From the NCBI RefSeq assembly GCF_004366035.1, contig NZ_SOEE01000012.1:1-64000 (forward strand): DNA of 64,000 bases, written 5' to 3'. Made by a program: the position numbers and the translations under genes. Numbering within the stretch: position 1 is the first letter of the stretch; every line of letters starts with the position of its first letter. Source of the DNA: Cytobacillus oceanisediminis. GTDB lineage: Bacteria; Bacillota; Bacilli; Bacillales; Cytobacillaceae. The notes beneath the pieces were generated by a model. The model was not told the DNA's origin. It saw only the letters and a program-made list of their open reading frames with translations, and did no database searches. Shown here piece by piece: positions 7,951-43,004 of this stretch.

Positions 7951-8337
7951 TAAAAAACAGGTAATTTTTTTACTTTATTTAATCAAACGTTTGATTGAAC
8001 TCTTTTTACTGCCATATCGATTGTTTTTACCCAAAGAGGGAATAATAAGTTAATGTGGACCAGTGCCTGATCATTGGCCGCCGTTTTATCCAACTGCTTA
8101 AACACATTCTCAATTATAAACTTAAATCTCATATTAGTTGAGATTGATACAGGCAAAAAAAGGGTAATTAAAACAAGGAAGAGTTATACTGTATTCAAGG
8201 AGATCAAGGCTGTTTTGAAAGTTCCATTCCGTACTGATTTGACCCTAAAAAAAGCGTAATTAAACTTTGGTGTCTTATCCTGTCATTAAAGTTTCCGCCC
8301 TTCAACCGAAAAGGATCAAAATTTCACAGCTTTTCCC
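7951..8337. other. spacer without supported gene
   Basis: About 390 bases between the divergent padR operon and ahpC. It holds one copy of the dispersed palindrome (7981-7996). A 61-codon open frame at 8074-8259 has no ribosome site and no recognisable sequence, so I do not call it. Confidence 0.6.
7981..7996. repeat. dispersed 16-bp palindrome, copy 1
   Basis: Exact AATCAAACGTTTGATT. Intergenic, between the padR operon and ahpC. See the finding on the seven copies. Confidence 0.9.
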
Positions 8338-8391
8338 TTGACAAAAAATATATCGTATATGATAATTATTACCGAATTAGAATTATTATTA
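8338..8391 (+). promoter_or_regulatory. ahpC promoter with PerR boxes
   Basis: -35 TTGACA (8338-8343), 17-base spacer, -10 GATAAT (8361-8366). A PerR-type box TTAGAATTATTATTA (8377-8391) matches the B. subtilis consensus TTATAATTATTATAA at 13 of 15, and a weaker second one overlaps the -10 (TGATAATTATTA at about 8360). Peroxide derepression of ahpCF by PerR is known in Bacillus. Confidence 0.85.
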
Positions 8392-8408
8392 AATAGTTCG
8401 CTATTTAA
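8389..8408 (+). other. 5'-UTR stem-loop before ahpC
   Basis: Perfect 8-bp stem TTAAATAG/CTATTTAA closing a TTCG loop, in the predicted leader about 43 bases before the ahpC start. It could act as a 5' mRNA stabiliser; that is inference. Confidence 0.5.
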
Positions 8409-8450
8409 TTAATAATCATATCACTCAACCATTTAAGGAGGAATTTTATC

Positions 8451-9014
8451 ATGGCATTAATCGGTTCAGAAGTACTACCATTCGCAGCAAAAGCTTACCA
8501 TAACGGTGATTTCATCGATGTTACTGAAGAAAACTTCAAAGGAAAATGGAGCGTAGTATGCTTCTACCCAGCAGACTTCACATTCGTATGCCCTACTGAG
8601 CTAGAAGACCTTCAAAATGAATATGCAACTTTAAAAGATATGGGAGCAGAAGTTTATTCTGTATCAACTGATACTCACTTCACTCATAAAGCATGGCACG
8701 ATAACTCTGAAACAATCAACAAGATTGAATACGTTATGATTGGTGACCCTAACCAGAGAATTTCCCGCAACTTCGAAGTTCTGAACGAAGAAGATGGACT
8801 GGCAGAACGCGGAACATTCATCATCGATCCAGATGGCATCATCCAAACTGTTGAAATCAACGCTGGCGGAATTGGCCGTGACGCAAGCCAGGTTGTAAGC
8901 AAGCTTAAAGCAGCTCAATATGTACGCAACAACCCAGGTGAAGTTTGCCCGGCTAAGTGGAAAGAAGGATCTGAAACACTTAAGCCAAGCCTTGATCTAG
9001 TAGGTAAAATCTAA
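8451..9014 (+). CDS. ahpC: alkyl hydroperoxide reductase subunit C (peroxiredoxin)
   Basis: 187 residues, a typical 2-Cys Prx1-class peroxiredoxin that reduces H2O2, organic peroxides and peroxynitrite. Peroxidatic Cys47 is in DFTFVCPTE and resolving Cys166 in GEVCPAKW, both at standard positions. ATG 8451 follows AAGGAGG. AhpF, its flavoprotein reductase, begins 14 bases after the stop. Expression should be under PerR (boxes at 8360-8391). Codon use is strongly biased, as expected for an abundant protein. Confidence 0.98.
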
Positions 9015-9028
9015 GGAGCACGATAATC

Positions 9029-10558
9029 ATGTTACTTGATGCAGATATAAAAGCACAATTAGCTCAATATCTTCAGATGATGGAGGGCGACATCCTTCTA
9101 AAAGTCAGCGCTGGATCAGATAAAGTATCCAGCGACATGCTGGCTTTGGTAGATGAGCTAGCCAATATGTCCTCCCACATTAAAGTTGAGCGCACTGAAT
9201 TACAAAGGACGCCAAGCTTTAGTGTAAATCGTCCAGGTGAAGATACTGGCATTACCTTTGCCGGCATTCCTCTTGGACATGAATTTACTTCCTTAGTGCT
9301 TGCTCTGCTTCAAGTTAGCGGAAGGGCACCTAAGGTTGATCAGAAAGTCATCGACCAGGTGAAGAAGGTTGAGGGCGAATATCGTTTTGAAACTTATGTC
9401 AGCTTAAGCTGCCACAACTGCCCTGATGTAGTACAGGCTCTTAACGTCATGAGTGTTCTTAACCCTAATATTTCACACACAATGATCGATGGTGCTGCTT
9501 ACAAAGAAGAAGTAGATGCTAAAGAAATTATGGCAGTGCCGACAGTTCTTCTTAATGGCGAATCATTCGGCAGCGGCCGTATGTCCCTTGAAGAAATTCT
9601 GGCGAAAATGGGAACAGGCCCTGACGCATCAGAGTTTGCAGATAAGGATCCTTATGATGTGCTTGTCATTGGAGGCGGCCCTGCGGGATCAAGCGCGGCA
9701 ATCTATGCTGCACGCAAAGGCATCCGCACCGGCATCGTTGCTGAACGCTTTGGCGGCCAGGTAATGGATACTTTAGGCATCGAAAACTTTATCAGTGTGA
9801 AGCATACAGAAGGCCCTAAGCTTGTTGCAAGCCTTGAAGAACACGTGAAAGATTATGGCATCGATGTCATGAATCTGCAGCGTGCAAAGAGACTTGAAAA
9901 GAAGGACCTTGTTGAAATTGAACTTGAAAACGGTGCTGTTCTGAAAAGTAAATCAGTCATCCTTTCAACTGGTGCACGCTGGAGAAATGTCAACGTGCCA
10001 GGTGAAGCAGAGTTCAAAAACAAAGGGGTTGCTTACTGCCCTCACTGTGATGGCCCATTATTTGAAGGCAAAGACGTAGCTGTTATCGGCGGAGGCAACT
10101 CCGGTATTGAAGCAGCCATTGACCTTGCAGGGATTGTTAATCATGTAACGGTTATCGAATTCAATCCTGAATTGAAAGCAGATGCCGTTCTGCAGGAACG
10201 TCTGAACAGCCTTCCAAACGTAACGGTTGTCACAAATGCTCAGACAACTGAAATTACCGGAACTGATAAAGTAAATGGTATTTCATACATGGATCGTGAG
10301 ACAGAAAAACTACACCATGTTGAACTGCAGGGTGTATTCGTCCAAATCGGCCTGGTTCCTAACACAGATTGGTTAGGCGACCAGATCGAGCGTACTCGCT
10401 TCGGCGAAATCGTTGTGGACAAGCACGGTGCCACAAACATCCCTGGTGTATTTGCTGCAGGAGACTGTACAGACAGTGCCTACAAGCAAATCATTATCTC
10501 CATGGGATCTGGTGCGACGGCAGCTCTAGGTGCGTTTGACTATCTGATCCGTAATTAA
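9029..10558 (+). CDS. ahpF: alkyl hydroperoxide reductase subunit F (NADH-dependent)
   Basis: 509 residues, full length. N-terminal tandem thioredoxin-like domain with redox pair SCHNCPDVV (about residue 130), then FAD-binding [10 protein letters not shown] (about 217), the second redox pair YCPHCDG (about 337), NAD-binding [10 protein letters not shown] and the C-terminal FAD motif [14 protein letters not shown]. Electrons pass from NADH via FAD and the two disulfides to AhpC. It follows ahpC with its own ribosome site (AAGGAG) and ends at a strong terminator. Confidence 0.98.
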
Positions 10559-10568
10559 TTTTTAATCT

Positions 10569-10603
10569 AAAACCGCTTACTGCCTTTGGCAGGAGCGGTT
10601 TTT
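10569..10603 (+). terminator. ahpCF terminator
   Basis: Stem AAAACCGCT/AGCGGTTTT with inner GCC/GGC pairing, followed by TTTCTATT. Confidence 0.85.
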
Positions 10604-10649
10604 CTATTGGGCTATCCCATTTCTTCAAAGTCGGCCAATGTATTCTACT

Positions 10650-10757
10650 CTAAGTTGGAAGCTCAGACTTAATCCCTGCTTCTGCTGTCCGAATGGCATT
10701 AGGTTCAGTCTTTTTTGTTAAGTGCCCTGGTACAATCGCAATTTGAAAGGCGACAGC
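10650..10757 (-). pseudogene. possible gene remnant (C-terminal fragment)
   Basis: A minus-strand frame ending at TAG 10650 reads EAVAFQIAIVPGHLTKK and on to KSELPT; its composition is coding-like, but there is no start codon. Upstream it runs straight into a copy of the dispersed palindrome (10762-10777), which carries an in-frame stop. About 35 residues. Family not recognised. I read it as the decayed tail of a gene, with limited confidence. Confidence 0.3.
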
Positions 10758-10761
10758 TTCC

Positions 10762-10777
10762 AATCAAACGTTTGATC
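10762..10777. repeat. dispersed 16-bp palindrome, copy 2 (one mismatch)
   Basis: AATCAAACGTTTGATC, one substitution at the last base relative to the other six copies. It abuts the remnant at 10650-10757. Confidence 0.8.
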
Positions 10778-10822
10778 GAAATAGAAAAAGAGCACAGACA
10801 TAGCCTGAGCCCTTACATTCTA

Positions 10823-10996
<174 letters not shown>

Positions 10997-11614
10997 TTAA
11001 TTCACCGCCATCCTCCCCAGCGGCCCATTTTCATCAATAATATCCTGCAGTGCATAAACGGATATCGGAAACATCGGGAATCCATAAGCATAAGGCGTTA
11101 TTTCATAGAGCTGGAAATAGATGATCAGAGCTTTGTCTGCTATATAAAAGTCCTGGTCAGGCCTAATGCCTTTGAAGTCTACAAGCAGCGGAATGTCACG
11201 CTGTTTAATTTGAACTGAGATCAGCTCAGACAGGCGTTTTACATAATTACTGCCCGGCTTAAATAAATCCTTTAAGGAAACCTGCTTCCCCTTTTGCAGA
11301 TCAAACGTCAGGGATTTTATAACTGTCATACCATGTGCCGCATGATAATGATACACGTAATTGGATAAAGACAAGCTCAGGACGTCTCGCTGATTACTTT
11401 TAATCTCATAGTATCCATACAAATCAACCACGGTTGTATCCATATTGCCTGTCTGCTCGTTAATGAGCTGCTGGTTTTCTCGGACAATGGTACTGTTGAT
11501 AACATGCTGCAGCTGCTTATTTTGCATTCCTGTCACACGGGGATAATAAACGACTTTGGTGGGCCCGGTCCTGATTGTCATCGTTTTGATGCCTACCGGA
11601 AAGTTGATTGCCAC
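10997..11614 (-). CDS. DUF3298/DUF4163-type protein (RsiV/PdaC-like domain)
   Basis: 205 residues from GTG 11614, which is preceded by GGATGG; a longer reading from 11644 has a poorer site. The C-terminal half has the DUF3298 pattern (QVSLKDLFKPGSNYVKRLSE and DKALIIYFQLYEITPYAYG) and the N-terminal half the DUF4163 pattern (VINSTIVRENQQLINEQ, YEIKSNQRDVLSLSLSNYVY). In RsiV and PdaC this module is extracellular, but here no signal peptide or membrane anchor is visible, so location is uncertain. Function unknown. Confidence 0.7.
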   Translation of the reverse strand: MAINFPVGIKTMTIRTGPTKVVYYPRVTGMQNKQLQHVINSTIVRENQQLINEQTGNMDTTVVDLYGYYEIKSNQRDVLSLSLSNYVYHYHAAHGMTVIKSLTFDLQKGKQVSLKDLFKPGSNYVKRLSELISVQIKQRDIPLLVDFKGIRPDQDFYIADKALIIYFQLYEITPYAYGFPMFPISVYALQDIIDENGPLGRMAVN

Positions 11615-11696
11615 GGCTATCCATCCTTTTTGGGTTTTTAACACATCCTATTCATCGGATAGGCGTTAAGGTGCATAACAGGTAATGGAAGTTTCA

Positions 11697-11722
11697 ATGT
11701 TATATAATGATATCGATATATA
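11697..11722. promoter_or_regulatory. AT-rich dyad and -10 upstream of bmrA
   Basis: TATAAT at 11702-11707 sits inside the imperfect dyad TTATATAATGATATCGATAT, which contains the perfect ATATCGATAT. A regulator of the MarR or TetR type could bind here. No good -35 is visible. Confidence 0.4.
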
Positions 11723-11741
11723 AGAGACAGGAGCACACAAA

Positions 11742-13475
11742 ATGGATAAAAAGCAAACCAGCCTTAAACCATTCATTTCACTCATACTATCAACAAAAAT
11801 TCCAAAGACTGCCCTCATCATTGGTTTAACAGCCAGCATTTTAACCACCTTAACTGGCCTTCTCGTACCGCTGCTGACCAAAAATCTGGTGGACGGTTTT
11901 TCTGTTGAATCTTTAAGCGTTCCGCTCATAATCGGAATTGGGGCAGCCTTTATCGTCCAGGCCATCATCAGCGGAATCTCCATCTACCTGCTCAGCTATG
12001 TAGGCCAAAAAGTGGTGGCACGGCTTCGGGACCGGATGTGGATGAAGCTCATAAGGCTGCCGGTCAGTTATTTTGATAAGCAATCCAGCGGCCGGACAGT
12101 CAGCCGCGTAGTTAATGATACTAGCATTGTCAGGGAGCTGATTACCAATCACTTTCCACAATTTATTACCGGGATTATCAGTATTATCGGTGCAATTATT
12201 ATCCTGCTTGTGATGGACTGGAAAATGACACTGCTCATGCTCACTTCTGTTCCTATTACACTGGCAATCATGATTCCACTCGGCCGAAAGATGGCAAAAA
12301 TATCTCGGGGCCTTCAAGATGAAACTGCCATCTTTACCGGAAACATTACCCAAACACTTGGTGAAATCCGCTTAATGAAGTCTTCTACCGCAGAACAAAA
12401 TGAAGAAGAAAAAGGATTGGATGGCATCGACAAACTGCTTGGCTTCGGTTTGCGGGAAGCCCGCATTTTTGCAATGATTGGCCCGACTATGTACCTGATT
12501 ATGATGGTTGTTATTGTCATGATCATCGCCTATGGAGGCATGCGTGTGGCCAGCGGAACGATGTCAACGGGTTCTCTTGTAGCCTTTTTGCTGTACTTAT
12601 TCCAGATTATTATGCCAATCACCTCATTTGCGATGTTTTTTACTCAGCTGCAAAAAGCAAAAGGCGCCACAGAGCGGATCATAGAAATTTTGGAGGAGCC
12701 ATTAGAAGATGGGCAAGACGGCATCGAATTGGATATCAGCAGCAAACCGATTTTAATCGATAACGTCTCATTCTCCTATAGCGCAGAAGAGAGTGTTCTG
12801 GAAAATATCTCACTGGAAGCCCAGCCAGGTCAGATGATTGCACTGGCAGGTCCAAGCGGAAGCGGAAAAACCACTCTGTTTGGTTTGCTTGAACGATTTT
12901 ACGAGCCAACTAATGGTGAAATTAAAATTGGCGATACACACATCCAGCAGATATCCCTTAAATCCTGGCGCAGCCAAATTGGCTATGTTTCACAGGAAAG
13001 TGCCATGATGGCAGGTACGATCCGTGAGAATTTATGCTATGGGCTGGAAAATTCCAAAAGCATTGCAGATGAGAAATTATGGGAAGTTGCGAAAATGGCA
13101 TACGCTGACCAATTCATCGCTGATTTTCCGAAGGGGCTTGACACAGAAGTTGGTGAGCGGGGGGTGAAGCTTTCCGGAGGACAACGGCAGCGTATTGCTA
13201 TAGCGCGGGCTTTCCTGCGCGACCCTAAAATATTGATGATGGACGAAGCTACCGCCAGCCTTGACAGCCAATCTGAAGGCATCGTCCAGCAGGCCCTTAC
13301 CCGCCTAATGGAAGGCCGGACAACTTTCGTCATCGCCCACCGCCTTTCCACAATTGTTGACGCAGACCAAATTGTTTTCATTGAAAAAGGACGGGTCACA
13401 GGCATTGGCACACATTCCGAATTGACACAATCACATGATCTATATCGTGAATTTGCCGAGCAGCAGCTTGCATAA
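11742..13475 (+). CDS. bmrA: multidrug ABC exporter, BmrA-like half transporter
   Basis: 577 residues: an N-terminal six-helix ABC membrane domain (1-310) and a C-terminal ATPase domain (about 330-575). Visible motifs are Walker A GPSGSGKTTLF, Q-loop YVSQES, signature LSGGQRQRIAIARAF, Walker B ILMMDEATASLD and the switch His in VIAHRLST. Similarity to B. subtilis BmrA runs the length of the protein (for example LLVPLLTKNLVDGFS and LPVSYFDKQSSG). BmrA works as a homodimer exporting hydrophobic drugs such as cervimycin. Single-gene unit with its own terminator. Confidence 0.92.
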   Translation: MDKKQTSLKPFISLILSTKIPKTALIIGLTASILTTLTGLLVPLLTKNLVDGFSVESLSVPLIIGIGAAFIVQAIISGISIYLLSYVGQKVVARLRDRMWMKLIRLPVSYFDKQSSGRTVSRVVNDTSIVRELITNHFPQFITGIISIIGAIIILLVMDWKMTLLMLTSVPITLAIMIPLGRKMAKISRGLQDETAIFTGNITQTLGEIRLMKSSTAEQNEEEKGLDGIDKLLGFGLREARIFAMIGPTMYLIMMVVIVMIIAYGGMRVASGTMSTGSLVAFLLYLFQIIMPITSFAMFFTQLQKAKGATERIIEILEEPLEDGQDGIELDISSKPILIDNVSFSYSAEESVLENISLEAQPGQMIALAGPSGSGKTTLFGLLERFYEPTNGEIKIGDTHIQQISLKSWRSQIGYVSQESAMMAGTIRENLCYGLENSKSIADEKLWEVAKMAYADQFIADFPKGLDTEVGERGVKLSGGQRQRIAIARAFLRDPKILMMDEATASLDSQSEGIVQQALTRLMEGRTTFVIAHRLSTIVDADQIVFIEKGRVTGIGTHSELTQSHDLYREFAEQQLA

Positions 13476-13479
13476 GAAG

Positions 13480-13508
13480 TGGCCAGTCTATCAAAGACTG
13501 GCCATTTT
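13480..13508 (+). terminator. bmrA terminator
   Basis: Stem TGGCCAGTCT/AGACTGGCCA with a short loop, then TTTT. Confidence 0.85.
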
Positions 13509-13652
13509 ACTGCTGATCTTGATTCCAGCCCCTTTAAAACCGAATCTTATGATAAAATGTGACAAATTATCCATATAAACATGATAGTGGATTCCTTATA
13601 ATGGAATTAAGATCTCAGTTAGTCATGCCAATCCAAAAGGAGGCTAAAGACT

Positions 13653-13871
13653 ATGTCAATAGATCACACACTTAACATGCTTGAAACATTGAAATATTAT
13701 TGTGACTCTGAAATCACTCAGACCTTTTCAAATGACAAACAGCAGGTTTTATCTGTATGTTACTTGAAAAACAATCATTCTTTTGAAATTACCTACACAG
13801 AAACAAATATAAAGAAAAATTTCCGCCACATAGAATCAGCAGCAGAAGCAATCGAAAAAGCCTTAAGGTGA
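13653..13871 (+). CDS. small YkuJ/DUF1797-like protein
   Basis: 72 residues, ATG 13653 with AAGGAGG upstream. The pattern VLSVCYLKNNHSFEITYTE followed by a short C-terminal helix resembles the B. subtilis YkuJ family (structure solved, function unknown). No membrane segment. Single gene. The family call is from pattern only. Confidence 0.6.
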   Translation: MSIDHTLNMLETLKYYCDSEITQTFSNDKQQVLSVCYLKNNHSFEITYTETNIKKNFRHIESAAEAIEKALR

Positions 13872-14251
13872 TTAAAACATCCTTAAAGCTTTTTTTGATT
13901 GTTCTCTTCCATGTGATTTTCGAGATGCAGGATACTATTCCCCGTATCTTTTCATTTAGGAGAAATCATACTGCAACCTAAATCAATCAAACGTTTGATT
14001 GACTTTTTTCTGTCTGTTATACGGCTTTCTCAGACTCAAAAACTCTCATAATTTCCTTGCTGTCTTTTGTCAGTATGTCTTTCACATTTAGTCCAAACCA
14101 TTTCCAGAGAAGCATCCATTTCCATTAAATTCGAAGTCTCTTAAGAACATCCTGTAATCTACCGCTCCTTCAAATAATGAAACTATGCCCTCCCTGCTGC
14201 ACCTGGAAAGGCACGGGACTGAAAGCTTAATAGATAGCAAACACATAAAAA
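13872..14251. other. spacer with palindrome and decayed coding traces
   Basis: About 380 bases without an intact gene. It holds one palindrome copy (13985-14000). Between about 14030 and 14220 the minus strand has coding-like scraps in two frames (REGIVSLFEGAVDYRMFLRD; MEMDASLEMVWTKCERHTDK) without a start, which may be a degenerate regulator gene. Confidence 0.45.
13985..14000. repeat. dispersed 16-bp palindrome, copy 3
   Basis: Exact AATCAAACGTTTGATT, extended to a perfect 20-bp palindrome (13983-14002) and followed by CTTTTTT. Confidence 0.9.
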
Positions 14252-14287
14252 AATGCCCATTCAAAAATCCCTTTATGAATGGGCATT
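14252..14287 (-). terminator. heme monooxygenase gene terminator
   Basis: 12-bp stem AATGCCCATTCA/TGAATGGGCATT (14252-14263 and 14276-14287), followed on the minus strand by TTTTTTATG. It begins just after the stop at 14293. Confidence 0.85.
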
Positions 14288-14292
14288 GCACT

Positions 14293-14628
14293 TTATTTAA
14301 CTTCAGCTGGCTCACGGTATTGCTTCTGGCCCAATGAATGATAGACATCCTGACGGCTATCAATAATATATTCCGGCTTCGGCTTGCCGCGGTTTGCCTT
14401 GTGCCCAGCAATATGTACATCACTTGTTTCCCACGCCTTCCAGGCTTCTTCCGATTCCCAGCGAATCATGACGGCCACTTCTTCGTCCCCGCTGCGCTGT
14501 TTCTTCTTTAAAACATTCAAATCAATAAATCCGGGCTGCTCTTCGATTATTCCTTCCCCTGCAAAGCGCTCGATTAACTTATTTGAATGGCCTTCTTTCA
14601 CCATAATTGTTTTTAATTGAATAAACAT
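14293..14628 (-). CDS. hmoA: heme-degrading monooxygenase, HmoA/IsdG family
   Basis: 111 residues, the usual size of the dimeric ferredoxin-like ABM fold. It aligns along its length with B. subtilis HmoA (KLIERFAGEGIIEEQPGF, IRWESEEAWKAWETSD, GHKANRGKPKPEYIID), with the Trp in IRWES and the His in VHIAGH that surround heme. The family's N-terminal active-site Asn appears to be Lys6 here (FIQLKTIM), which could alter activity. A Fur box lies 38 bases upstream (14666-14680), fitting iron recovery from heme. Confidence 0.85.
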   Translation of the reverse strand: MFIQLKTIMVKEGHSNKLIERFAGEGIIEEQPGFIDLNVLKKKQRSGDEEVAVMIRWESEEAWKAWETSDVHIAGHKANRGKPKPEYIIDSRQDVYHSLGQKQYREPAEVK

Positions 14629-14665
14629 ATCTGTTCCTCCCCTGCTTCTTTTCTGTTATTATAAT

Positions 14666-21482: not shown

Positions 21483-22304
21483 ATGTTTTTTCATGTAAAA
21501 GAATTGCAATTTGAAGCTAAGCCGGAACGTCCGGATCCCGTTTTTGCCAAAAAGCTTCAGGAATTGATCGGCGGCCAATATGGTGAAATGACGGTTGCCA
21601 TGCAGTACATGTTTCAGGGCTGGGCAACTCGTGGAAATGAAAAGTATCGCGACCTTCTGCTGGATATTGGGACTGAAGAAATTGGACATGTGGAAATGCT
21701 CGCAACAATGGTTGCCAGACTAATGGACGACGCCCCTGTTAATCAGCAGGAAGAAGCAGCAAAGGATCCGGTGGTTGGAGCGATTATGGGCGGAATGAAC
21801 CCGCAGCATGCCATTGTCTCCGGACTTGGTGCCCGTCCGACTGACAGTGTAGGGAACCCTTGGATGGGCACTTATATTACAGCCAGCGGAAATTTATTAG
21901 CAGACTTCCGTTCAAACTTGAATGCAGAGTCCCAGGGCCGTCTGCAGGCTGCACGTCTCTATGAAATGACTGATGATAAGGGCATTAAAGATCTGCTTTC
22001 AGTTCTGATTGCCAGAGACGCTTACCACCAAAACCAATGGGCTGCTGCGATTGCGGAGCTTGAAGAAAAAGAAGGCCTGCTCGTCCCCAGCACCTTCCCT
22101 CGTGAAAAAGAACGCACAGATATCTCTTACACACTCTACAACCTATCAGCAGGCGAAGAAAGCAGCACAGGCAGATGGGCACAGGGCCCTGCTCTGGATG
22201 GCCAGGGAGAATACAAATATGTAAGCAATCCAAAGCCTGAGGGGGACAAGCCTATGCTAAAGCCTGCACCACCAAACCTCCATAACACATTACCGATGGA
22301 TTAA
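21483..22304 (+). CDS. ydbD: manganese (non-heme) catalase, YdbD-like
   Basis: 273 residues, full length. Four-helix bundle with the di-manganese ligands visible as Glu and His pairs in QYGEMTVAMQYMFQG, GTEEIGHVEMLATMV and the later RLYEMTDD and ARDAYHQNQW; then the C-terminal tail with FPREKERTDISYTLYN. Dismutates H2O2 without heme, useful under iron limitation; it lies directly after a Fur-controlled siderophore operon but on its own transcript. ATG 21483 follows AGGAGG. Confidence 0.92.
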   Translation: MFFHVKELQFEAKPERPDPVFAKKLQELIGGQYGEMTVAMQYMFQGWATRGNEKYRDLLLDIGTEEIGHVEMLATMVARLMDDAPVNQQEEAAKDPVVGAIMGGMNPQHAIVSGLGARPTDSVGNPWMGTYITASGNLLADFRSNLNAESQGRLQAARLYEMTDDKGIKDLLSVLIARDAYHQNQWAAAIAELEEKEGLLVPSTFPREKERTDISYTLYNLSAGEESSTGRWAQGPALDGQGEYKYVSNPKPEGDKPMLKPAPPNLHNTLPMD

Positions 22305-22353: not shown

Positions 22354-22369
22354 AATCAAACGTTTGATT
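22354..22369. repeat. dispersed 16-bp palindrome, copy 4
   Basis: Exact AATCAAACGTTTGATT, symmetrical over 22 bases (22351-22372), immediately after the catalase terminator. Confidence 0.9.
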
Positions 22370-25095: not shown

Positions 25096-25929
25096 TCAAT
25101 CAAACGTTTGATTGATCAAACCCTCTTCATAAAGAATATCCTCAATACCAGGGCCATTTCCTTGGTCATCCATGTCCTCACAGCCAACCGAAAAATAGGT
25201 ATACGAATATTCATATCCATCTCCCTGTACACCGCCTGATCCGCCATGTGAAATACAGCTTTCTGATATCGCTTCACGCTTCCCCTTTTCATCCACATAA
25301 TAGTACAAGTCATCAATATATCCTTCACTTTGCGGTAAAGAGGTAATGGCATATCCTCTATCATTCACCCGAACTACATCGTATTTCCCTTCTGTCTCAG
25401 GCTTAGGGGCATTCTCTATTTCATGAACAATTCTTACCTGACCTGTATACCCTTTTGGAATCAGGTAAAGATCATGAGTTTTTTCTTCCAGATCAGCCTG
25501 CTGGAGCATCCAAAAAGATCCCATTGGCAGCAGGAAAGTGACTAGAAGACCTGCTGTATTCAAGGCAACCCTCCTGCCCCCTGGCATCTCGCGGTCCCAT
25601 TTCCGCCACTCGTCCACTAAAAAGAAAAGCACCGAAGCAATTAATACGTAAAAAGCAAACCCTTCCATAATAAAATAAGTGAGCGAAGCCAAAAAGGTAT
25701 GTATAAAAGCCGCCGCTGGAAACCGCCATACTGCTAGATTTTTAGTAAAAAGCTCAGAAAGCAGCGACACTGGAACACCGTATATCACATTTCCGAAAAG
25801 GCAGTATAAAAAAATGATAATCAGGAAGAAAGAAAACAGCCCCCCTTCAGAAAAGAAAAAGAGAAGCCAAAAACCAAATGTAAAAAGAATAGAAGCCTGC
25901 AGGGCCGTTTTTAATTTTAATCTCAGCAT
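25096..25929 (-). CDS. membrane protein with DUF6843-type C-terminal domain
   Basis: 277 residues. Four to five hydrophobic segments in residues 10-145, then a soluble C-terminal domain beginning YLIPKGYTGQVRIVHEI, which resembles the domain now called DUF6843, with two Cys (SESCISHGG; SVGCEDMDD) that could pair outside the cell. The last six residues and the stop (INQTFD) are encoded by palindrome copy 5. A TGTGA-N6-TCACA box lies 26 bases upstream of the start. Function unknown. Confidence 0.7.
   Translation of the reverse strand: MLRLKLKTALQASILFTFGFWLLFFFSEGGLFSFFLIIIFLYCLFGNVIYGVPVSLLSELFTKNLAVWRFPAAAFIHTFLASLTYFIMEGFAFYVLIASVLFFLVDEWRKWDREMPGGRRVALNTAGLLVTFLLPMGSFWMLQQADLEEKTHDLYLIPKGYTGQVRIVHEIENAPKPETEGKYDVVRVNDRGYAITSLPQSEGYIDDLYYYVDEKGKREAISESCISHGGSGGVQGDGYEYSYTYFSVGCEDMDDQGNGPGIEDILYEEGLINQTFD
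25098..25113. repeat. dispersed 16-bp palindrome, copy 5
   Basis: Exact AATCAAACGTTTGATT, here forming the last codons and stop of the minus-strand gene 25096-25929. Confidence 0.9.
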
Positions 25930-27768: not shown

Positions 27769-28060
27769 AACTTCGATAACTGTCTGGCTACCCCCTCAAG
27801 GTCACAAGCTTGTCTAGTTGCGGATCCTGAGCAGCCGCCTCCACATTTTGGGCAAGCCACCCAAAAGGCAAAGAACGCCTTTCCGGGAGGCTCGTCTTGT
27901 GCTTGAGGCCCACAGGACAAGGAAGGCTTCGACAGCTTAAACATCGCACGACCGAAAGCGACAGCTTTTGGGAGGATGTGGGTCATTCACAGACGTTGCC
28001 ACAGGACGTGGTGCTCTTAGTCTGCGTTCCTTTTTGAGCGAGGCGCTTGCGCTTTTCTTA
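27769..28060 (-). repeat. modular dispersed repeat, copy B
   Basis: 292-bp member. On the minus strand it starts TAAGAAAAGCGCAAGCGCC, whose TAA is the tenA stop codon, and ends GCCAGACAGTTATCGAAGTT. It shares CACGTCCTGTGGCAACGTC with copy C, TTTAAGCTGTCGAAGC and TTCCTTGT with copy E, and GACGAGCC...GTTCTTTG with copy D. GC content is well above the surrounding spacers. Confidence 0.8.
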
Positions 28061-28786: not shown

Positions 28787-28824
28787 AAAAAGCATGAGGA
28801 TATATAACGAGGTCCTCACTGCTT
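28787..28824 (-). terminator. riboswitch-controlled terminator of tenA
   Basis: Minus-strand stem AAGCAGTGAGGA/TCCTCATGC followed by TTTTTCCCC. The 5' side begins in the last bases of the TPP aptamer, as in transcription-terminating THI elements. Confidence 0.75.
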
Positions 28825-28905
28825 CCCTGCGCTGGCATTATCCAGATCAGGTTCCAAGGGACAAAGGAAAAGCTCCTTATCTCAGCCGTAGCGCCCCTAG
28901 CAGTT
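28820..28905 (-). ncRNA. TPP riboswitch (THI element) upstream of tenA
   Basis: Minus strand carries the conserved TPP aptamer: CTAGGGGCGC, GGCTGAGA, CCTTGGAACCTGATCTGGAT, AATGCCAGCGCAGGGAAGC. TPP binding should promote the terminator at 28787-28824 and switch tenA off. Confidence 0.96.
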
Positions 28906-28942
28906 TTCTTATTTTAAATTTTTTACCGATTTTCTAACTTGA

Positions 28943-29278
28943 CGTTTTTCGCTCATAAGTTTTGGATTTCGCTTTTAACTGTTGAAAATCGCTCATAAAT
29001 TTTGAATTTCGCCCATAACTCTTGAGAATCGCTCATAAATTTGAATTTCGCCCATAACTCTTGAAAATCTCTCATAAATTTTGAATTTCGCCCATAACTC
29101 TTGAAAATCGCTCATAAATTTCGAATTTCGCCCATAACTCTTGAAAATCGCTCATAAATTTTAAATTTCGCCCATAACTCTTGAAAATCGCTCATAAATT
29201 TTAAATTTCGCCCATAACTCTTGAAAATCGCTCATGAATTTTAAATTTCGCCCATAACTCTTGAAAATCGCTCATAAG
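28943..29278. repeat. 40-bp tandem repeat array
   Basis: About eight copies of a 40-base unit made of two related 20-base halves, CGCTCATAAATTTTGAATTT and CGCCCATAACTCTTGAAAAT. Copies differ by single substitutions, one lacks a base, and the outermost left copy is most diverged. Fills the space between the tenA riboswitch and thiW. No open frame is kept and there are no CRISPR-like unique spacers. Confidence 0.92.
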
Positions 29279-29922: not shown

Positions 29923-29954
29923 GTTTAAGTATATGAATTGACATATAGTCAAAT

Positions 29955-30057
29955 CCTACTTCCCTCCGCTGGCATTAACCAGATCAGGTCCATAAGAGTC
30001 AGAAAGCTATAACGCGCTTTCCTCTCAGCCCGCACATTCGGGGCACCCCTAGTAGTT
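29955..30057 (-). ncRNA. TPP riboswitch upstream of thiW
   Basis: Minus strand: ACTAGGGGTGCC, GGGCTGAGAGGAAAGCGCG, GGACCTGATCTGGTTAATGC, CAGCGGAGGGAAGTAGG. All conserved aptamer blocks are present; the P3 extension is longer than in the tenA copy. Confidence 0.96.
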
Positions 30058-30184
30058 GCATAGATATTTAGTTTGATAAGCTATCTCAAGCTTAACAAAA
30101 TATTCAGTCGCTGTCATCATTCTTTTTGCTTAAATACATTTCTTGATGGAATGGAATAGGGGCTCTTCAATTTCTGCTGAGAAA

Positions 30185-33358: not shown

Positions 33359-33907
33359 ATGATAAAATTAGAACCTTTTACAGAAAAAGATTTCAATTTG
33401 CTCATCAGCTGGATCAGCACACCAGAATTAATGGTTCAGTGGAGCGGTGCCCATTTTAAATTCCCCCTTAATCATGAGCAGCTTGCTAAGTATATAAGCT
33501 CTGCAAACCTGGAAACCAGCTCGGAATATATCTACAAAGTTATGGCAAACGATGAAATCGTCGGTCACATTTCCCTTGGCAGAGTTGACCGTATCAACGA
33601 AACTGCGAGGATCGGCAAGGTTTTCATCTGCCCCGCAGCACGGGGGAAAGGGTATGCTTCAGAAATGATTCATCAAATCCTGAACTTAGCGTTCCAAGAG
33701 CTGAAATTAAATAGAGTCAGTCTCGGGGTTTTCGATTTTAATTTGCCTGCTATTAAGATTTACGAGCAGGCAGGGTTCCAAAAAGAAGGACTTCTTAGGC
33801 AGACCAATAAAGTTAGAAATATATATTGGAACTTGATAGAAATGAGCATCCTGAAAACTGAATGGCAGGCAAGCCCCGGGCTCATGGGTATTCAATCAAA
33901 CGTTTGA
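33359..33907 (+). CDS. GNAT N-acetyltransferase (RimJ/RimL-like)
   Basis: 182 residues, ATG after AAGGAG. GNAT landmarks: IKLEPFTEKDFNLLISWI at the start, VGHISLGRVD, the acetyl-CoA loop VFICPAARGKGYASEMIHQ and NLPAIKIYEQAGFQKEGLLRQ. It would acetylate a protein N-terminus, ribosomal protein or small molecule. The last codons (IQSNV and stop) are encoded by palindrome copy 6, so the C-terminus may have been altered by that element. Confidence 0.88.
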   Translation: MIKLEPFTEKDFNLLISWISTPELMVQWSGAHFKFPLNHEQLAKYISSANLETSSEYIYKVMANDEIVGHISLGRVDRINETARIGKVFICPAARGKGYASEMIHQILNLAFQELKLNRVSLGVFDFNLPAIKIYEQAGFQKEGLLRQTNKVRNIYWNLIEMSILKTEWQASPGLMGIQSNV

Positions 33908-33909
33908 TT
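33894..33909. repeat. dispersed 16-bp palindrome, copy 6
   Basis: Exact AATCAAACGTTTGATT, symmetrical over 22 bases (33891-33912); supplies the stop of the GNAT gene. Confidence 0.9.
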
Positions 33910-36360: not shown

Positions 36361-36365
36361 ATTCC

Positions 36366-36572
36366 CTACTTTTCTTTTTTTAGAGCTGAAAGTACCGGCT
36401 TTTTCTCTTCATTCTTTCCCTCATCAGAAACTAAATCCTTTGCCGCGCTTTTAAACTCCGTTAAGGTCCGCCCAAATGCCCTCCCGATTTCGGGAAGCTT
36501 GGATGGCCCAAATATGATTAAGGCAATGACAAGAACCAGAATTAAGCCTGGAATGCCAATGTTGGATATCAT
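36366..36572 (-). CDS. tatA: twin-arginine translocase subunit TatA
   Basis: 68 residues: one membrane helix ([19 protein letters not shown]), the [17 protein letters not shown] hinge and amphipathic helix, and a charged tail ([16 protein letters not shown]). Forms the protein-conducting oligomer of the Tat pathway. It begins 15 bases after phoD, matching the B. subtilis phoD-tatAd arrangement for a dedicated export system. No tatC follows; it must lie elsewhere. Confidence 0.93.
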
Positions 36573-36587
36573 CTTCTCACCGTCCCA

Positions 36588-38342: not shown

Positions 38343-38380
38343 TTTTCTTCACCTCTTAACTCAATCTGGATTCACAGTTG

Positions 38381-38434
38381 ATTATAAGAGGCTATTTTTA
38401 AAGCAATATGAAGATATGTAAAGGAGAATGACAA
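38381..38434 (-). promoter_or_regulatory. phoD promoter with PhoP-like repeats
   Basis: Minus-strand hexamers TTGTCA (38429-38434), TTTACA (38417-38422), TTCATA (38407-38412) and TTTAAA (38397-38402) are spaced 10-12 bases apart, resembling Pho boxes (TTAACA-like), and precede TATAAT at 38381-38386. Confidence 0.55.
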
Positions 38435-38656
38435 TACCTCTGCCTATTTCATCAGGACTTTGTAAGGATTTGGTTGTTCATTCAACCCATAATCCAGACT
38501 TGCAGCCAAAATGCCTTTGTGCCCCTGTATCATTTGTCCCAGCTATTTTTACAATATATACATAGAAGATTAACGAATCCTGTCAAAATCTTTTAGTTTA
38601 CTAATCTATAAATAGTGTTTATGATGATAGTTATAATATTGAAAAGGGGTGAGGGA

Positions 38657-38977
38657 ATGAAAAAAATGAAGTTACTGCCACTTTTAATGCTGTCTGTATT
38701 TTTATCCTTCCTCATCACCCAATACCCTGGTGTCCATTTTAATGATATTCCTATGGACCAAAGCAAAGCAGTAACGGTTTCGGATTTTAACGAGAGCTTT
38801 CTATTAAAAGATGACCCTAAAAAATATATCTTCACACAGGGTTTGCTTTCTTTAGCCATCACAAACCTAACCATTATTCTTTTTGTATACAGTGCCCTGC
38901 ACATCATCGCCCGCAGAAAAAAGATATTTTATACCCCCATCTTCTACGAGGCGAATTATGTAATCCACACTCCTTAA
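38657..38977 (+). CDS. small membrane protein of unknown function
   Basis: 106 residues from ATG 38657, preceded by GGGGTGAGGG; longer readings lack a ribosome site. N-terminal hydrophobic segment (LLPLLMLSVFLSFLITQYPG), an extracytoplasmic-looking 45-residue loop, a second segment (LAITNLTIILFVYSALHII) and a basic tail. Followed after 35 bases by another small membrane protein. No family recognised. Confidence 0.65.
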   Translation: MKKMKLLPLLMLSVFLSFLITQYPGVHFNDIPMDQSKAVTVSDFNESFLLKDDPKKYIFTQGLLSLAITNLTIILFVYSALHIIARRKKIFYTPIFYEANYVIHTP

Positions 38978-39012
38978 TTGTCCAACAAAACAATTAAAGG
39001 AGGAAACGAATA

Positions 39013-39126
39013 ATGTGGATTCGATTCTTAATGATTGGCTTATTTTCATTAACAGCTTCCAGTCTGTTCTTTTATCAGGGAATGGAAATGTATCATGCTT
39101 TCACAGATTTCTTTAGACAAAAATAA
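39013..39126 (+). CDS. 37-residue single-span membrane peptide
   Basis: ATG 39013 is preceded by AAAGGAGGAAACGAATA, a good ribosome site. Sequence begins MWIRFLMIGLFSLTASSLFF and ends in HAFTDFFRQK: one hydrophobic helix then a short amphipathic tail. Likely co-transcribed with the 106-residue membrane protein; a terminator follows nine bases after the stop. Confidence 0.65.
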   Translation: MWIRFLMIGLFSLTASSLFFYQGMEMYHAFTDFFRQK

Positions 39127-39134
39127 GAAGTTGG

Positions 39135-39160
39135 CGCCCAGGGACTCCCTGGGCGTTTTT
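39135..39160 (+). terminator. terminator after small membrane genes
   Basis: 9-bp stem CGCCCAGGG/CCCTGGGCG with a 3-base loop and TTTTTAATT. Confidence 0.9.
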
Positions 39161-39370
39161 AATTCTTTCGATCAAGAAGGATTAGTTTCCTTCGTCCCCT
39201 TTTCCTCTTCTTCCGGGCACACTATTTCATCCTTATTAGTTCCCTACACATCTTCTTGCCTCTCCTCCAATGCCCTTCATCCTCATTAGCTCCCTTCGTT
39301 CATTTCCTGCTTTTCCCGCAGGCATTTATCCTTAATACGTCTCGCTCCATTTTCACTTTTTAACTCAGCT
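39161..39370. repeat. pyrimidine-rich degenerate repeat spacer
   Basis: About 210 bases strongly biased to C/T on the plus strand, with drifting units such as CATCCTTATTAGTTCCCT, CATCCTCATTAGCTCCCTTC and ATCCTTAATACGTCTCGC. No gene. Similar in style to the arrays at 16045, 28943 and 58620. Confidence 0.5.
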
Positions 39371-39374
39371 TCAT

Positions 39375-39413
39375 AAAAAAACACCCGGCCTGTTTTATTC
39401 CCAGGCCGGGTGT
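39375..39413 (-). terminator. terminator of second FbpB-type gene
   Basis: 12-bp stem ACACCCGGCCTG/CAGGCCGGGTGT followed on the minus strand by TTTTTT. Confidence 0.9.
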
Positions 39414-39419
39414 ACATTC

Positions 39420-39545
39420 TTACTGTGCTTTTGCATATTTATCGTCTATTTTCTTTTCGATTTTTTCAAGCTCCCGGCTATCTTTTAAAAGTTCTTCTTT
39501 ATTTGCCTTAATCATTTCAAGCATTGATAATTTCTTCTTTTTCAT
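39420..39545 (-). CDS. FbpB-family small basic protein, paralogue 2
   Basis: 41 residues: MKKKKLSMLEMIKANKEELL then KDSRELEKIEKKIDDKYAKA. Same length and pattern as the gene at 34756-34881 (basic head, MI/LIK-x-NKEEL, I-E-K-x-D-x-KY). GAAGGTG upstream of ATG 39545 serves as ribosome site; strong terminator after. Family link to FbpB (iron-sparing partner protein in B. subtilis) is by pattern. Stands alone; no Fur box seen in the 80 bases upstream. Confidence 0.75.
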   Translation of the reverse strand: MKKKKLSMLEMIKANKEELLKDSRELEKIEKKIDDKYAKAQ

Positions 39546-39629
39546 TTCTGTTCACCTTCTCTCATGATGTCTGTAATCTCCTTGATGCTGGATCTATTTT
39601 TTTGACAGAGTATGGTGTCTGTCTGTCAC

Positions 39630-40496
39630 CTAAAAAACAATCGTCTTATTTCCATGCACAATGACTTTGTTTTCCACATGCCAGGCGACTGCCTGGGCGA
39701 GGACCTGTCTTTCCACATGTCGTCCTGCAATTTTGAGATCCTGTGCAGTGTGGCGGTGATTAACCCGCTGGACATCCTGCTCAATGATCGGGCCTTCATC
39801 CAAATCATTCGTTACATAATGAGCTGTTGCCCCAATCAGCTTGACTCCGCGGTTAAACGCCCGTGCATAAGGATTGGCTCCCACGAAGGCTGGCAGAAAG
39901 CTATGATGGATATTGATAATCCTGTTTGGAAATTTGGATATAAAGCTGGGCGAAAGGATCTGCATATATCTTGCGAGTACAATGAAATCCACTTTTCCAT
40001 CCAGCAGCTCCACAGACTTTTGCTCAGCTTCAGCTTTCGTGTCAGGCGTAATCGGAACATGATGATAAGGTATTCCGAAACCTTCCACCACTTCCCTCAT
40101 GTCGGGATGATTGCTGATCACCAGGGGAATATCCACTTCAAGCTCCTTCGATTTCCAGCGCCATAACAGCTCCAGCAGACAGTGATCCATCTTAGAGACA
40201 TAAATGGCCATCCGCTTGCGCTCGCCTTTGCCGCTCAGCTTCCACTCCATTGAGTATTCCCTGGCCATTTCAGGCAGATCCTCTTTCAGTTTTGAAAAGG
40301 ACTCATCAAAATGGTTCATATCGAATTCAATCCGCATAAAGAAGATGCCTGCCAGCGGATCGGTTGTATGCTGGTCAAAATGGACAATATTTGCCTTATG
40401 CTCCAGCAGGAAATTGGAGACTGTGGAGATTATGCCTGGCCTCTCAGGACAGGATATCAGCAATGTCGCCCTGTTTGCATTGATATTTGTATTCAT
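39630..40496 (-). CDS. purU: formyltetrahydrofolate deformylase
   Basis: 288 residues from ATG 40496, seven bases after GGAGG; the longer reading lacks a site. N-terminal ACT domain (LISCPERPGIISTVSNFLLEH), C-terminal formyltransferase fold with the catalytic Asn/His/Asp series in INIHHSFLPAFVGANPY, GATAHYVTNDLDEGPII. Releases formate from 10-formyl-THF, keeping the folate pool balanced with glycine cleavage. The tandem glycine riboswitch upstream fits that link. Confidence 0.95.
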   Translation of the reverse strand: MNTNINANRATLLISCPERPGIISTVSNFLLEHKANIVHFDQHTTDPLAGIFFMRIEFDMNHFDESFSKLKEDLPEMAREYSMEWKLSGKGERKRMAIYVSKMDHCLLELLWRWKSKELEVDIPLVISNHPDMREVVEGFGIPYHHVPITPDTKAEAEQKSVELLDGKVDFIVLARYMQILSPSFISKFPNRIINIHHSFLPAFVGANPYARAFNRGVKLIGATAHYVTNDLDEGPIIEQDVQRVNHRHTAQDLKIAGRHVERQVLAQAVAWHVENKVIVHGNKTIVF

Positions 40497-40538
40497 ATAG
40501 ATTCCTCCATCTGCATTTCCCGAAGCTGCCATCCATAT

Positions 40539-40586
40539 AAAAAGGACAGAAAAAAGGCGGCTTCTTCATCCCCCTTCTCTGTCCTT
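40539..40586 (-). terminator. glycine-riboswitch terminator before purU
   Basis: Minus-strand stem AAAAGGACAG/CTGTCCTTTTT; its left arm is the 3' end of the second glycine aptamer, so ligand binding could prevent it forming. Confidence 0.75.
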
Positions 40587-40740
40587 TTACCTGAGAGTTT
40601 AACCCCTTTGGTGTCGCAGGATTCCTGCGCGCTCTCCAGAGATGCGTCCGACTGCGGTTCTGTCTACCTGAGAGATTGGCTTCAAGGGTATTTTTGAAGC
40701 TTGCTCCTTCGGTGGCTACTGAATGCTCTCTCCCGCAGCC
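40575..40740 (-). ncRNA. tandem glycine riboswitch upstream of purU
   Basis: Minus strand shows two aptamers: GGGAGAGAGC...GCCACCGAAGGAGCAAG...AATCTCTCAGG, then TCTGGAGAGCGC...CACCAAAGGGG...AACTCTCAGGTAAAAGGACA. The short linker between them (ACAGAACCGC...GGACGC) is typical of the cooperative gcvT class. Confidence 0.95.
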
Positions 40741-40884
40741 GTCATTCGCTCAATATTTTTGTTATTTTCAGAATAATACATTATTTAGACTATGTCAATC
40801 GAACTGCGTTTCTTTCACAAAATTGCCACAATTGTAATTTAACTATTTTTTTTCCATATCATTTGCATAGGATAAAGGGCAAAT

Positions 40885-40918
40885 AAAAAAAACCTGAAGA
40901 CAATGTCTCCAAGCCTTT
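40885..40918 (-). terminator. MFS gene terminator
   Basis: Minus-strand stem CTTGGAGAC/GTCTTCAGG (with G-U pairs) followed by TTTTTTTT, just after the stop at 40921. Confidence 0.7.
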
Positions 40919-40920
40919 TT

Positions 40921-42108
40921 CTATACAGCCGCTTTCGGTTTCGGCTCCTTTTTTTGCCAGGCAATCGTGATAAACAATGTAACGATCAATAGGGCGAGAC
41001 CGAGCACAAACGGATAGGTTATCCGTACATCGTAAAGTACGCCGGCAATCGTTGGGCCAAGCACGTTTCCAATGCTCATATAAGCATTATTCATCCCCAT
41101 CGCAAATCCCTGCTCATTGCCAGCCATTTTTGAGATAAGCGTGGTTAAAACCGGACGCAGAATGGAAGTGGCCAGGAAAATGATCAGCGAAATGACAAAG
41201 AAAAGTGCATAGCTTCCTGCAAACAGCGATACAAGGAAGCCTGACGCCGCAACAGCCAAAAAGATATTCAATACCTTTCCTTCTCCGAATTTATTAACCA
41301 CCCGATCGACTACAAATAGCTGAACAATAACACTAATGACCCCCGTTGAAGTCACCATAATGGCAATTTCCTGCGGAGTAGCAGCAAACTCATTATCAAG
41401 GTACAGCCCCAGCACTGATTCATACGCCATTAAACCAAAACTCATCACCAATGTGATGACAAGCGGAATAAAATATGGCTTCTTAACAGACATTGCCAGC
41501 TTCTTGACCATTGGTTCCTCGTCAGGCATTTCTCCCGGCACCGTCTGCAATGTGCTGCTTTCTTCGAGGAGCACAATTGAAAAAATAACTGCCACTAGAG
41601 ATACAAGCGCTGAAATCAGAAAAGGCATTTTCAATCCGAAGTCTGCCAAAAATCCGCCAATTCCAGGTCCAACCACAATTCCAAGTGACATTGCAGCTGA
41701 GACAAGGCCATTCCCTTTTGCACGCTGCTCCATAGTTGTAATATCCGCAATGTAAGCAAAAATAGCTGGAATCAGCAATGCTGCTCCAATGCCTCCGATT
41801 ACGCGTGAAAAATAAAGCAGCCAAATGGAATCCACTGCATAAAAGACAAGCATGGATAATGTCAAACCAGCTAATCCGTAAATAATCATCTTTCTTCGGC
41901 CGTATTGGTCTGCCCATTTCCCTGCAATGGGTGAAAAAATCAGCTGGGCACCCGCAAAAATGGCAATCATCAAGCCAGCTGCCGTTCCACCCTGATTAAT
42001 GGATTCCAAATAAGCCGGCAAAATCGGAATAATAATCCCAAAGCTTCCGATCGCAATAAACATATTGATCATTAAAATGACCATCTTTTTCTTTTGATCC
42101 CCAGACAT
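40921..42108 (-). CDS. MFS multidrug efflux transporter (Bmr/NorA-like DHA1)
   Basis: 395 residues, 12 membrane segments. Features of the DHA1 drug:H+ antiporters: GIIIPILPAYLESI in TM1, motif A GKWADQYGRRKMI, and motif C GIVVGPGIGGFLAD in TM5. ATG 42108 with GGAGGGG upstream. A perfect 16-bp palindrome ATTTAGCACGCTAAAT lies 45 bases upstream, probably the operator of a MarR- or TetR-type repressor encoded elsewhere. Substrate not predictable. Confidence 0.88.
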   Translation of the reverse strand: MSGDQKKKMVILMINMFIAIGSFGIIIPILPAYLESINQGGTAAGLMIAIFAGAQLIFSPIAGKWADQYGRRKMIIYGLAGLTLSMLVFYAVDSIWLLYFSRVIGGIGAALLIPAIFAYIADITTMEQRAKGNGLVSAAMSLGIVVGPGIGGFLADFGLKMPFLISALVSLVAVIFSIVLLEESSTLQTVPGEMPDEEPMVKKLAMSVKKPYFIPLVITLVMSFGLMAYESVLGLYLDNEFAATPQEIAIMVTSTGVISVIVQLFVVDRVVNKFGEGKVLNIFLAVAASGFLVSLFAGSYALFFVISLIIFLATSILRPVLTTLISKMAGNEQGFAMGMNNAYMSIGNVLGPTIAGVLYDVRITYPFVLGLALLIVTLFITIAWQKKEPKPKAAV

Positions 42109-42152
42109 AGCGGATACCCCTCCTTCTATATGTGAAAAATTTACATTAATTT

Positions 42153-42168
42153 ATTTAGCACGCTAAAT
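42153..42168. promoter_or_regulatory. operator-like palindrome upstream of MFS gene
   Basis: ATTTAGC-AC-GCTAAAT, perfect two-fold symmetry, 45 bases before the start codon. Single copy in this window. TTTAGC half-sites fit MarR-type operators. Confidence 0.55.
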
Positions 42169-42209
42169 AGCTTATAATGAGACAGGCTGCTTTGTCAAAG
42201 GAAAAATAA

Positions 42210-42242
42210 GAGAAGCTCCAGCATATGCTGAAGCCTCTTGTA
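42210..42242. terminator. terminator of secreted helical protein gene
   Basis: Stem GAAGCTCCAGCA/TGCTGAAGCCTC with G-T pairs; followed on the minus strand by TTATTTTT. Confidence 0.65.
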
Positions 42243-42243
42243 T

Positions 42244-42882
42244 TCACCCTTTGAATTTGTCCGGGAATTGCTTCACAACTGCTTTTGAAATGGCATCTGC
42301 CATTATGATAATATGCGACAATCCATCATCAATTGAAACAATTCTTGCATCCCAATCCTTAACCAGGCTCGCTGTTAAATCATCTGTCACCAATTCGAGG
42401 TGCGTGTATAGCAATTTTTTTACATCTTCATTTTGCAAATTCGGATTGGCTCCGCTTAGAAAAGCAGCAATCTCATCTGCATTGCGATGCCATTTTTTGT
42501 TCAGCTGATTCACTTTGGCGCCTTGCCCGCTTTTGGCAGCTTCAACAATATCTCCGGCAATAACAATATGCTCCTTAAGCAGCTCTGTAAGCTTATTTCC
42601 TGCAGCATCTCCATAATAAGGCTTTATTGAATTCCCGATTTCCTCCTGATTTTTCAAAAGCCTTGCCAGAACCTGCTTCTGATCCTCCGCACCGGCTGTT
42701 GTGGCACTTGTAATATAATTGCTTGTCCATAATACATTGTTCATCCATAACCTGCGGAATTCATTTTCAAACTTAACCTCTGATTGTGTGATACACGGTT
42801 TCTGTGCAGCTGCATTGCCTGGAGCTGCCAGCGTATTCAGCGGCAGCAGCAGCATTATTCCCAATATCAGTAATTTCTTCAT
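42244..42882 (-). CDS. secreted four-helix-bundle-like protein, unknown function
   Basis: 212 residues. Signal peptide (1-20, cleavage near LAAPGNA), then an all-helical region. One His sits in each of four predicted helices (LKEHIVIAGD, KKWHRNADEI, LYTHLELVTDD, DGLSHIIIMAD) together with Trp/Asn near the start (LWMNNVLWTSNYITS). That layout would suit a metal or heme site in a helical bundle. Relatives in Bacillus are often labelled glycosyltransferase, which I see no support for. Single gene with its own terminator. Confidence 0.65.
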   Translation of the reverse strand: MKKLLILGIMLLLPLNTLAAPGNAAAQKPCITQSEVKFENEFRRLWMNNVLWTSNYITSATTAGAEDQKQVLARLLKNQEEIGNSIKPYYGDAAGNKLTELLKEHIVIAGDIVEAAKSGQGAKVNQLNKKWHRNADEIAAFLSGANPNLQNEDVKKLLYTHLELVTDDLTASLVKDWDARIVSIDDGLSHIIIMADAISKAVVKQFPDKFKG

Positions 42883-42950
42883 ATCCTTTTCTCCTTCCAG
42901 ATTGAAAAAGTTTCCTTCTTATTTTGATTATCTTAAGAGTTTTCATTCCA

Positions 42951-42985
42951 AAAAAATAAAGCTCGAGGCTAATGCCCCAAGCTTT
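42951..42985 (-). terminator. terminator downstream of aspartokinase
   Basis: Minus-strand stem AAAGCTTGGGGC/GCCTCGAGCTTT followed by ATTTTTTT. The next palindrome copy begins four bases away. Confidence 0.65.
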
Positions 42986-42988
42986 TTC

Positions 42989-43004
42989 AATCAAACGTTT
43001 GATT
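42989..43004. repeat. dispersed 16-bp palindrome, copy 7
   Basis: Exact AATCAAACGTTTGATT beside a terminator in the spacer between the aspartokinase gene and the secreted helical protein gene. It is the last copy in the window. Confidence 0.9.

Follow-up and report, generated by a model that had tools for sequence, protein, structure and literature searches.

We propose that a perfect 16-bp palindrome, AATCAAACGTTTGATT, which recurs in a 64,000-nucleotide stretch of Cytobacillus oceanisediminis DNA (contig NZ_SOEE01000012.1, positions 1 to 64,000; hereafter the window), very probably serves this Bacillus-like species as its RefZ-binding motif (RBM), a putative assignment made from sequence. 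The assignment rests on the sites and their conservation in relatives, on their two-band layout around dnaA, on a RefZ equivalog in the genome and on an RBM-like layout of related sites in Bacillus spizizenii. The RefZ system itself is already known, and what we describe here is a richer version of it. The original papers on RBMs are said to be Miller 2016 and Wagner-Herman 2012. According to PMC6657595 and PMC11154705, RefZ is a TetR-family protein that in Bacillus subtilis binds five nearly palindromic RBMs, two on each chromosome arm and one near oriC; the former source adds that the arm RBMs delimit the DNA captured in the forespore and are required for precise chromosome capture at sporulation (PMC6657595).

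A strict palindrome in the window, the genome and its relatives

Within the window AATCAAACGTTTGATT is present as six exact copies and one copy with a single mismatch, with no further match at up to three mismatches; when the window was shuffled 100 times, matches at that tolerance averaged 0.80, with a maximum of 3. All seven positions had been given in an earlier note made from the letters alone, and each was borne out. Its remark that several copies extend to 20-22 bp of symmetry was about right, the measured range being 14-24 bp. The copies, none of which is assigned a strand, are listed here with their state in four relatives (G001, G003, G012 and G035).

7981..7996, exact RBM-like palindrome; symmetry 16 bp; exact in G001, the alignments of G003, G012 and G035 being without this spacer
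10762..10777, RBM-like palindrome, its last base (C) the single mismatch; symmetry 14 bp; spacer outside the alignments of all four relatives
13985..14000, exact RBM-like palindrome; symmetry 20 bp; convergent open reading frames (ORFs) on either side
22354..22369, exact RBM-like palindrome; symmetry 22 bp; exact in 4/4 relatives
25098..25113, exact RBM-like palindrome; symmetry 20 bp; exact in 4/4 relatives
33894..33909, exact RBM-like palindrome; symmetry 24 bp; exact in G001 and G003, one base different in G012 and G035
42989..43004, exact RBM-like palindrome; symmetry 16 bp; exact in 4/4 relatives

Across the whole genome (5.84 Mb in 61 contigs) there are 16 exact copies, compared with 0 for the reversed pattern, which served as control here and below; the count, which the earlier note had set against random expectation, is not near random. 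The site is unusually strict, since a tolerance of two mismatches gives 25 matches (2 in the control) and so brings only 9 more. The copies are also clustered along the genome, with seven on the 100-kb contig that holds the window (C12), three on C5, two on C6, three on C8 and one on C9, and none on the remaining 56 contigs, C1-C4 among them. The seventh exact copy on C12 is at 70231, outside the window, so that the earlier statement that no copy follows 43 kb holds for the window but not for its contig.

We aligned the spacers of the seven exact copies on C12 with those of the four relatives, and found that the palindrome is retained while its flanks drift. It is exact in 7/7 spacers of G001 and in 6/6 covered spacers of G003, and G012 and G035 each have 4/6 exact and 2/6 with one base changed; from flank identity, the expected numbers of exact survivals are ∼0.5, ∼0.6, ∼1.5 and ∼1.4 for G001, G003, G012 and G035, respectively. 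Some of the aligned pieces had been chosen because they bear a copy, and the G001 comparison took in all seven of our genome's copies. Where an alignment begins at the site (13985 in G001 and G003, 33894 in G003), the flank identity is one-sided. The 13985 copy is exact in G001 and G003 by such short alignments and carries a single-base change in G012 and G035. No empty spacer and no insertion footprint was found among the covered spacers of the four relatives.

The motif is widespread. In a first set of 151 genomes, comprising our own and its relatives, 95 carry at least one exact copy, and the control has 0 in every genome; all 35 other members of the genus have exact copies, from 2 to 26 each. 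A second set of 183 family genomes with completeness of at least 95%, which takes in the majority of the first set's family members, has the exact motif in 164 genomes, with a maximum of 27 copies. Neither the 16-mer nor its 14- or 12-base core was found printed in the main text of the papers searched.

Two relatives hold tandem arrays of 6-9 palindromes (loci L016 and L017 in G055, L021 and L022 in G120), with periods of ∼52, 102-103 or 125 bp, or 44 and 104 bp in alternation. In the L021 array the palindrome alternates with a one-base variant, TCAAACGATTGA, and an ORF that appears LacI-like by eye is close to array L022. A further variant, AATCAATCGTTTGATT, occurs as two copies 31 bp apart in G000 (C8:196364 and 196395); its central change is also present in an array of another species, and exact copies paired at this 31-bp spacing are found in G001, G003 and G035.

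Position relative to the replication origin and the presence of RefZ

Plotted relative to the origin, as the earlier note had suggested, the copies form two bands, one on each arm. We located dnaA in 151/151 genomes and examined the layout in 20 complete or near-complete ones, chosen by hand from the 151 because their contigs were few and a copy was present. The count used 183 of their 194 copies (the 11 left out being 1 in G028, 4 in G055 and 6 in G068), and copies no more than 5 kb apart were merged, giving 148 places; for G055, an assembly of 10 contigs, the largest contig was taken as the whole circle. By this count 138/148 places are 4-20% of the chromosome length from dnaA; the 148 places are split 88 vs 60 between the arms, with a median distance of 10.2%. 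The clearest case is G081, with 14 copies at 342-738 kb on one side of dnaA and 10 at 368-753 kb on the other.

Our own assembly consists of unjoined contigs, and distance to dnaA was measured directly on C5, where dnaA is at 459928 and the copies at 11136, 109464 and 139717 are all on one side, ∼320-449 kb away. No origin-near site was found on C5, the nearest copy being the one ∼320 kb from dnaA. The window copies align with stretches ∼0.43-0.48 Mb from dnaA in G001 and G012, and by this collinearity we infer that the window probably belongs to one of the two bands.

The genome encodes RefZ, identified as an NF037937 equivalog (268 bits vs a cut-off of 180) whose best match among solved structures is B. 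subtilis RefZ/YttP (6mj1, E 1.8e-51). At a match threshold of E 1e-30, RefZ is present in 146/151 genomes, and the five RefZ-negative ones (G048, G102, G130, G147 and G148) all lack both the perfect palindrome and its one-base variant AAACAAACGTTTGATT; for the perfect palindrome the association has a Fisher p of 0.006, uncorrected for kinship. RefZ was found in 182/183 genomes of the family set, and the sole RefZ-negative member (G048) is without the motif. A one-contig relative, G057, has a RefZ match with an internal stop (C1:2682850-2683431); the exact 16-mer is missing from this genome, which contains one AAACAAACGTTTGATT. The recognition helix of RefZ also differs between genomes, NPANI(A/S)YYF types being common with the perfect palindrome and NVAHISYYF occurring with AAACAAACGTTTGATT. 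Such co-variation of helix and motif, taken as a rule, is broken by G101 and G146, which have NPANIS and neither motif form, and by G119, which has NSATIS and seven perfect copies; we keep it as a lead.

As a stand-in for B. subtilis we took B. spizizenii TU-B-10, which shares 98% identity with B. subtilis in RefZ and whose 4207-kb record starts at a DnaA-like ORF (409-1749). With up to two mismatches allowed, the palindrome matches its genome 14 times and the control once. A three-mismatch scan covering 243 kb (on the left arm, 3.60-3.82 Mb) gave eight distinct sites with a AAACGTTT core and 1-3 mismatches, five of which fit the published layout of two sites per arm and one near the origin: 38665; 455493 and 481327 on the right arm; and 3702641 and 3752561 on the left arm, 454.7 and 504.6 kb from the record end. 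In Sutcliffiella halmapala, 14 copies with one mismatch, each of them AAACAAACGTTTGATT, fall at 399-731 kb and 4203-4530 kb of a 4696-kb sequence.

Several observations weigh against the RBM assignment. No exact copy is present in 51 of the 146 RefZ-bearing genomes, an absence that agrees with, but does not prove, drift of the motif from clade to clade. Only 2/148 places are within 4% of dnaA, so there is no general counterpart of the origin-near RBM of B. subtilis, and our genome has 16 copies where B. subtilis has five RBMs. In G054, 5/8 copies are as far as 1.3-2.0 Mb from dnaA, and a single such outlier is found in each of G085 and G087; those of G054 possibly stem from rearrangement, because its refZ is ∼0.25 Mb from dnaA vs ∼1.5 Mb in its congener G085. 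Three of the AAACGTTT-core sites of B. spizizenii (1376648, 1587620 and 4206534) are outside the published layout, and the likeness of the B. spizizenii sites to RBMs was drawn by layout rather than letter by letter. For S. halmapala the contrast with control is 21 matches vs 6 at up to two mismatches, and the two stretches are near the scaffold ends of a sequence whose first 3 kb are N and whose origin is not placed.

If the palindrome is the RBM, its role can be sketched from the B. subtilis papers, from which we infer both the binding of RefZ to the copies and the effect of that binding. RefZ, as a TetR-family dimer made early in sporulation, would bind the copies in the two bands, ∼0.2-1 Mb on each side of oriC. 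With the chromosome stretched and its origin at the pole, these bands would come to be near the future polar septum, where bound RefZ would tune the site of FtsZ assembly so that the forespore takes in a reproducible share of the chromosome. Any novelty would be one of degree, in that the palindromes are perfect, each arm has many copies (a genome of the family has up to 27 in all) and G055 and G120 carry tandem arrays. It is conceivable, though we would not favor it, that this family, in place of two RefZ sites per arm, has evolved two broad bands with many perfected sites (as many as 27 exact copies, some in arrays of 6-9), that a graded zone of RefZ along the chromosome, rather than single boundary marks, could position the septum, and that the recognition helix was tuned to the perfect palindrome.

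With a motif this strict, searching many spore-formers for the exact string would be a way to map likely RefZ sites. With a median of ∼10% per arm and copy numbers of 0-27, these genomes offer a natural experiment on how the captured fraction is set, and the array-bearing species are suited to asking whether copy number alters capture or septum position.

Gene context and alternative explanations

The neighboring genes and other features of the window that bear on the alternatives, or that were found alongside, are as follows.

1-79, minus: 5' end of a 16S rRNA gene, at the contig edge
7503-7850, minus, and 8451-9014, plus: divergent ORFs flanking the 7981 copy, the second encoding an AhpC/TSA-family protein
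21483-22304, plus: Mn-catalase family gene upstream of the 22354 copy
25096-25929, minus: ORF whose last codons overlap the 25098 copy
27958-28036 and 46142-46203: Bacillaceae-1 RNA family matches, the second barely above threshold
28807-28908 and 29944-30060, minus: TPP riboswitches
28947-29277: tandem-repeat array of about eight 40-bp repeats (94% matches), between the two TPP riboswitches
33359-33907, plus: acetyltransferase-family ORF, its end entered by the 33894 copy
40645-40745, minus: glycine riboswitch

By the ORFs of a simple caller, tandem genes flank 6 of the 16 exact copies in the genome, convergent genes 5 and divergent genes 1, and the other 4 overlap an ORF. Two of these four enter the last codons (25098 and locus L004), one is near the start of a called ORF and the remaining one is within a short ORF of ∼85 amino acids, which is probably spurious. 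The 33894 copy was classed as convergent yet also enters the last codons of an ORF, and the earlier note was correct in placing both it and the 25098 copy at gene ends. Several copies are near or within terminator-like hairpins: by eye, the 42989 copy is directly 3' of a terminator-like inverted repeat and T run, and a 44-bp perfect palindrome with a T run after it has the 70231 copy at its centre (L031 6217-6260, contig C12), so that an RBM may double as a terminator. A terminator or other RNA element was rejected as the main explanation, as the flanks vary and some copies are by eye without such a stem, and was kept as a secondary one.

Might a metabolic repressor of the LacI or TetR family instead use the copies as operators? 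We consider this extremely unlikely. A TetR-family repressor of Thermus does bind a very similar sequence, AACAAACGTTTGTT (PMC6651687). The 7981 copy is between divergent genes, 6/16 copies are between tandem genes, and three of the ten window proteins that we scanned are peroxide-defence-like (an AhpC/TSA-family protein, an AhpF-like reductase and an Mn catalase). However, the others are of mixed families, so that a shared pathway with sites in its promoters is not what we found, and only 1/16 copies is divergent while 5/16 have convergent neighbors, a setting in which a promoter would not be expected. Placement alone leaves room for an operator role, since tandem copies could be upstream of a gene; the stronger argument is the pair of origin-flanking bands, which would not be expected of a regulon. 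LacI-family sites typically have a central CG, and a LacI-family operator was considered for this feature and because the base second from the centre varies between A and T, but it too is opposed by the two-band layout. Thus, of the TetR/LacI regulon proposed in the earlier note, the TetR half stands insofar as RefZ belongs to that family, and the LacI, PurR or cre half is unsupported because the copies form two bands and 5/16 are convergent.

The same note had also named a nucleoid or segregation protein, and the RBM assignment takes up that suggestion, RefZ acting on chromosome capture and septum placement. A different chromosome organiser with the same layout, whether ParB/Noc-like, a condensin boundary or another factor, seems very unlikely to us. 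It would share the strict 16-bp palindrome (parS is also 16 bp long), the low copy number and the origin-flanking bands, but the agreement of five B. spizizenii sites with the reported RBM layout and the lack of the motif in five RefZ-negative genomes favor RefZ, and the palindrome presumably differs from parS and Noc sites. As for a small mobile palindrome spread by transposition, another of the earlier suggestions, we give it almost no chance. The arrays of 6-9 and the copies near terminator-like hairpins would suit it, but it is unsupported because every covered spacer in the four relatives carries the site or a one-base variant and none is empty; by eye, moreover, our copies share no sequence past the palindrome and its immediate edges.

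Comparison with known systems

One related recognition sequence is that of TTHA0973, the TetR-family protein of Thermus thermophilus, whose AACAAACGTTTGTT is very similar to the present palindrome. It is a promoter repressor rather than a marker of chromosome position, its sites being in promoters of phenylacetic-acid genes (PMC6651687). A functional parallel is provided by SlmA, the nucleoid-occlusion protein of Escherichia coli, which, like RefZ, is a TetR-family protein with palindromic chromosomal sites that steers FtsZ. The bands of the present palindrome, unlike the sites of SlmA, flank the origin. The two proteins, according to PMC6657595, have no significant sequence similarity and differ in their loss-of-function substitutions. 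The nearest system overall is that of the B. subtilis RBMs. Both sets of sites are palindromic and occur on both arms (at ∼10.8-12% of the chromosome from the origin for B. spizizenii and, for the present clade, at a median of 10.2%), and both genomes encode RefZ. The B. subtilis sites are nearly palindromic and include one near oriC, whereas those of the present clade are perfect 16-bp palindromes, usually with none near oriC, and in two relatives they are built into arrays.

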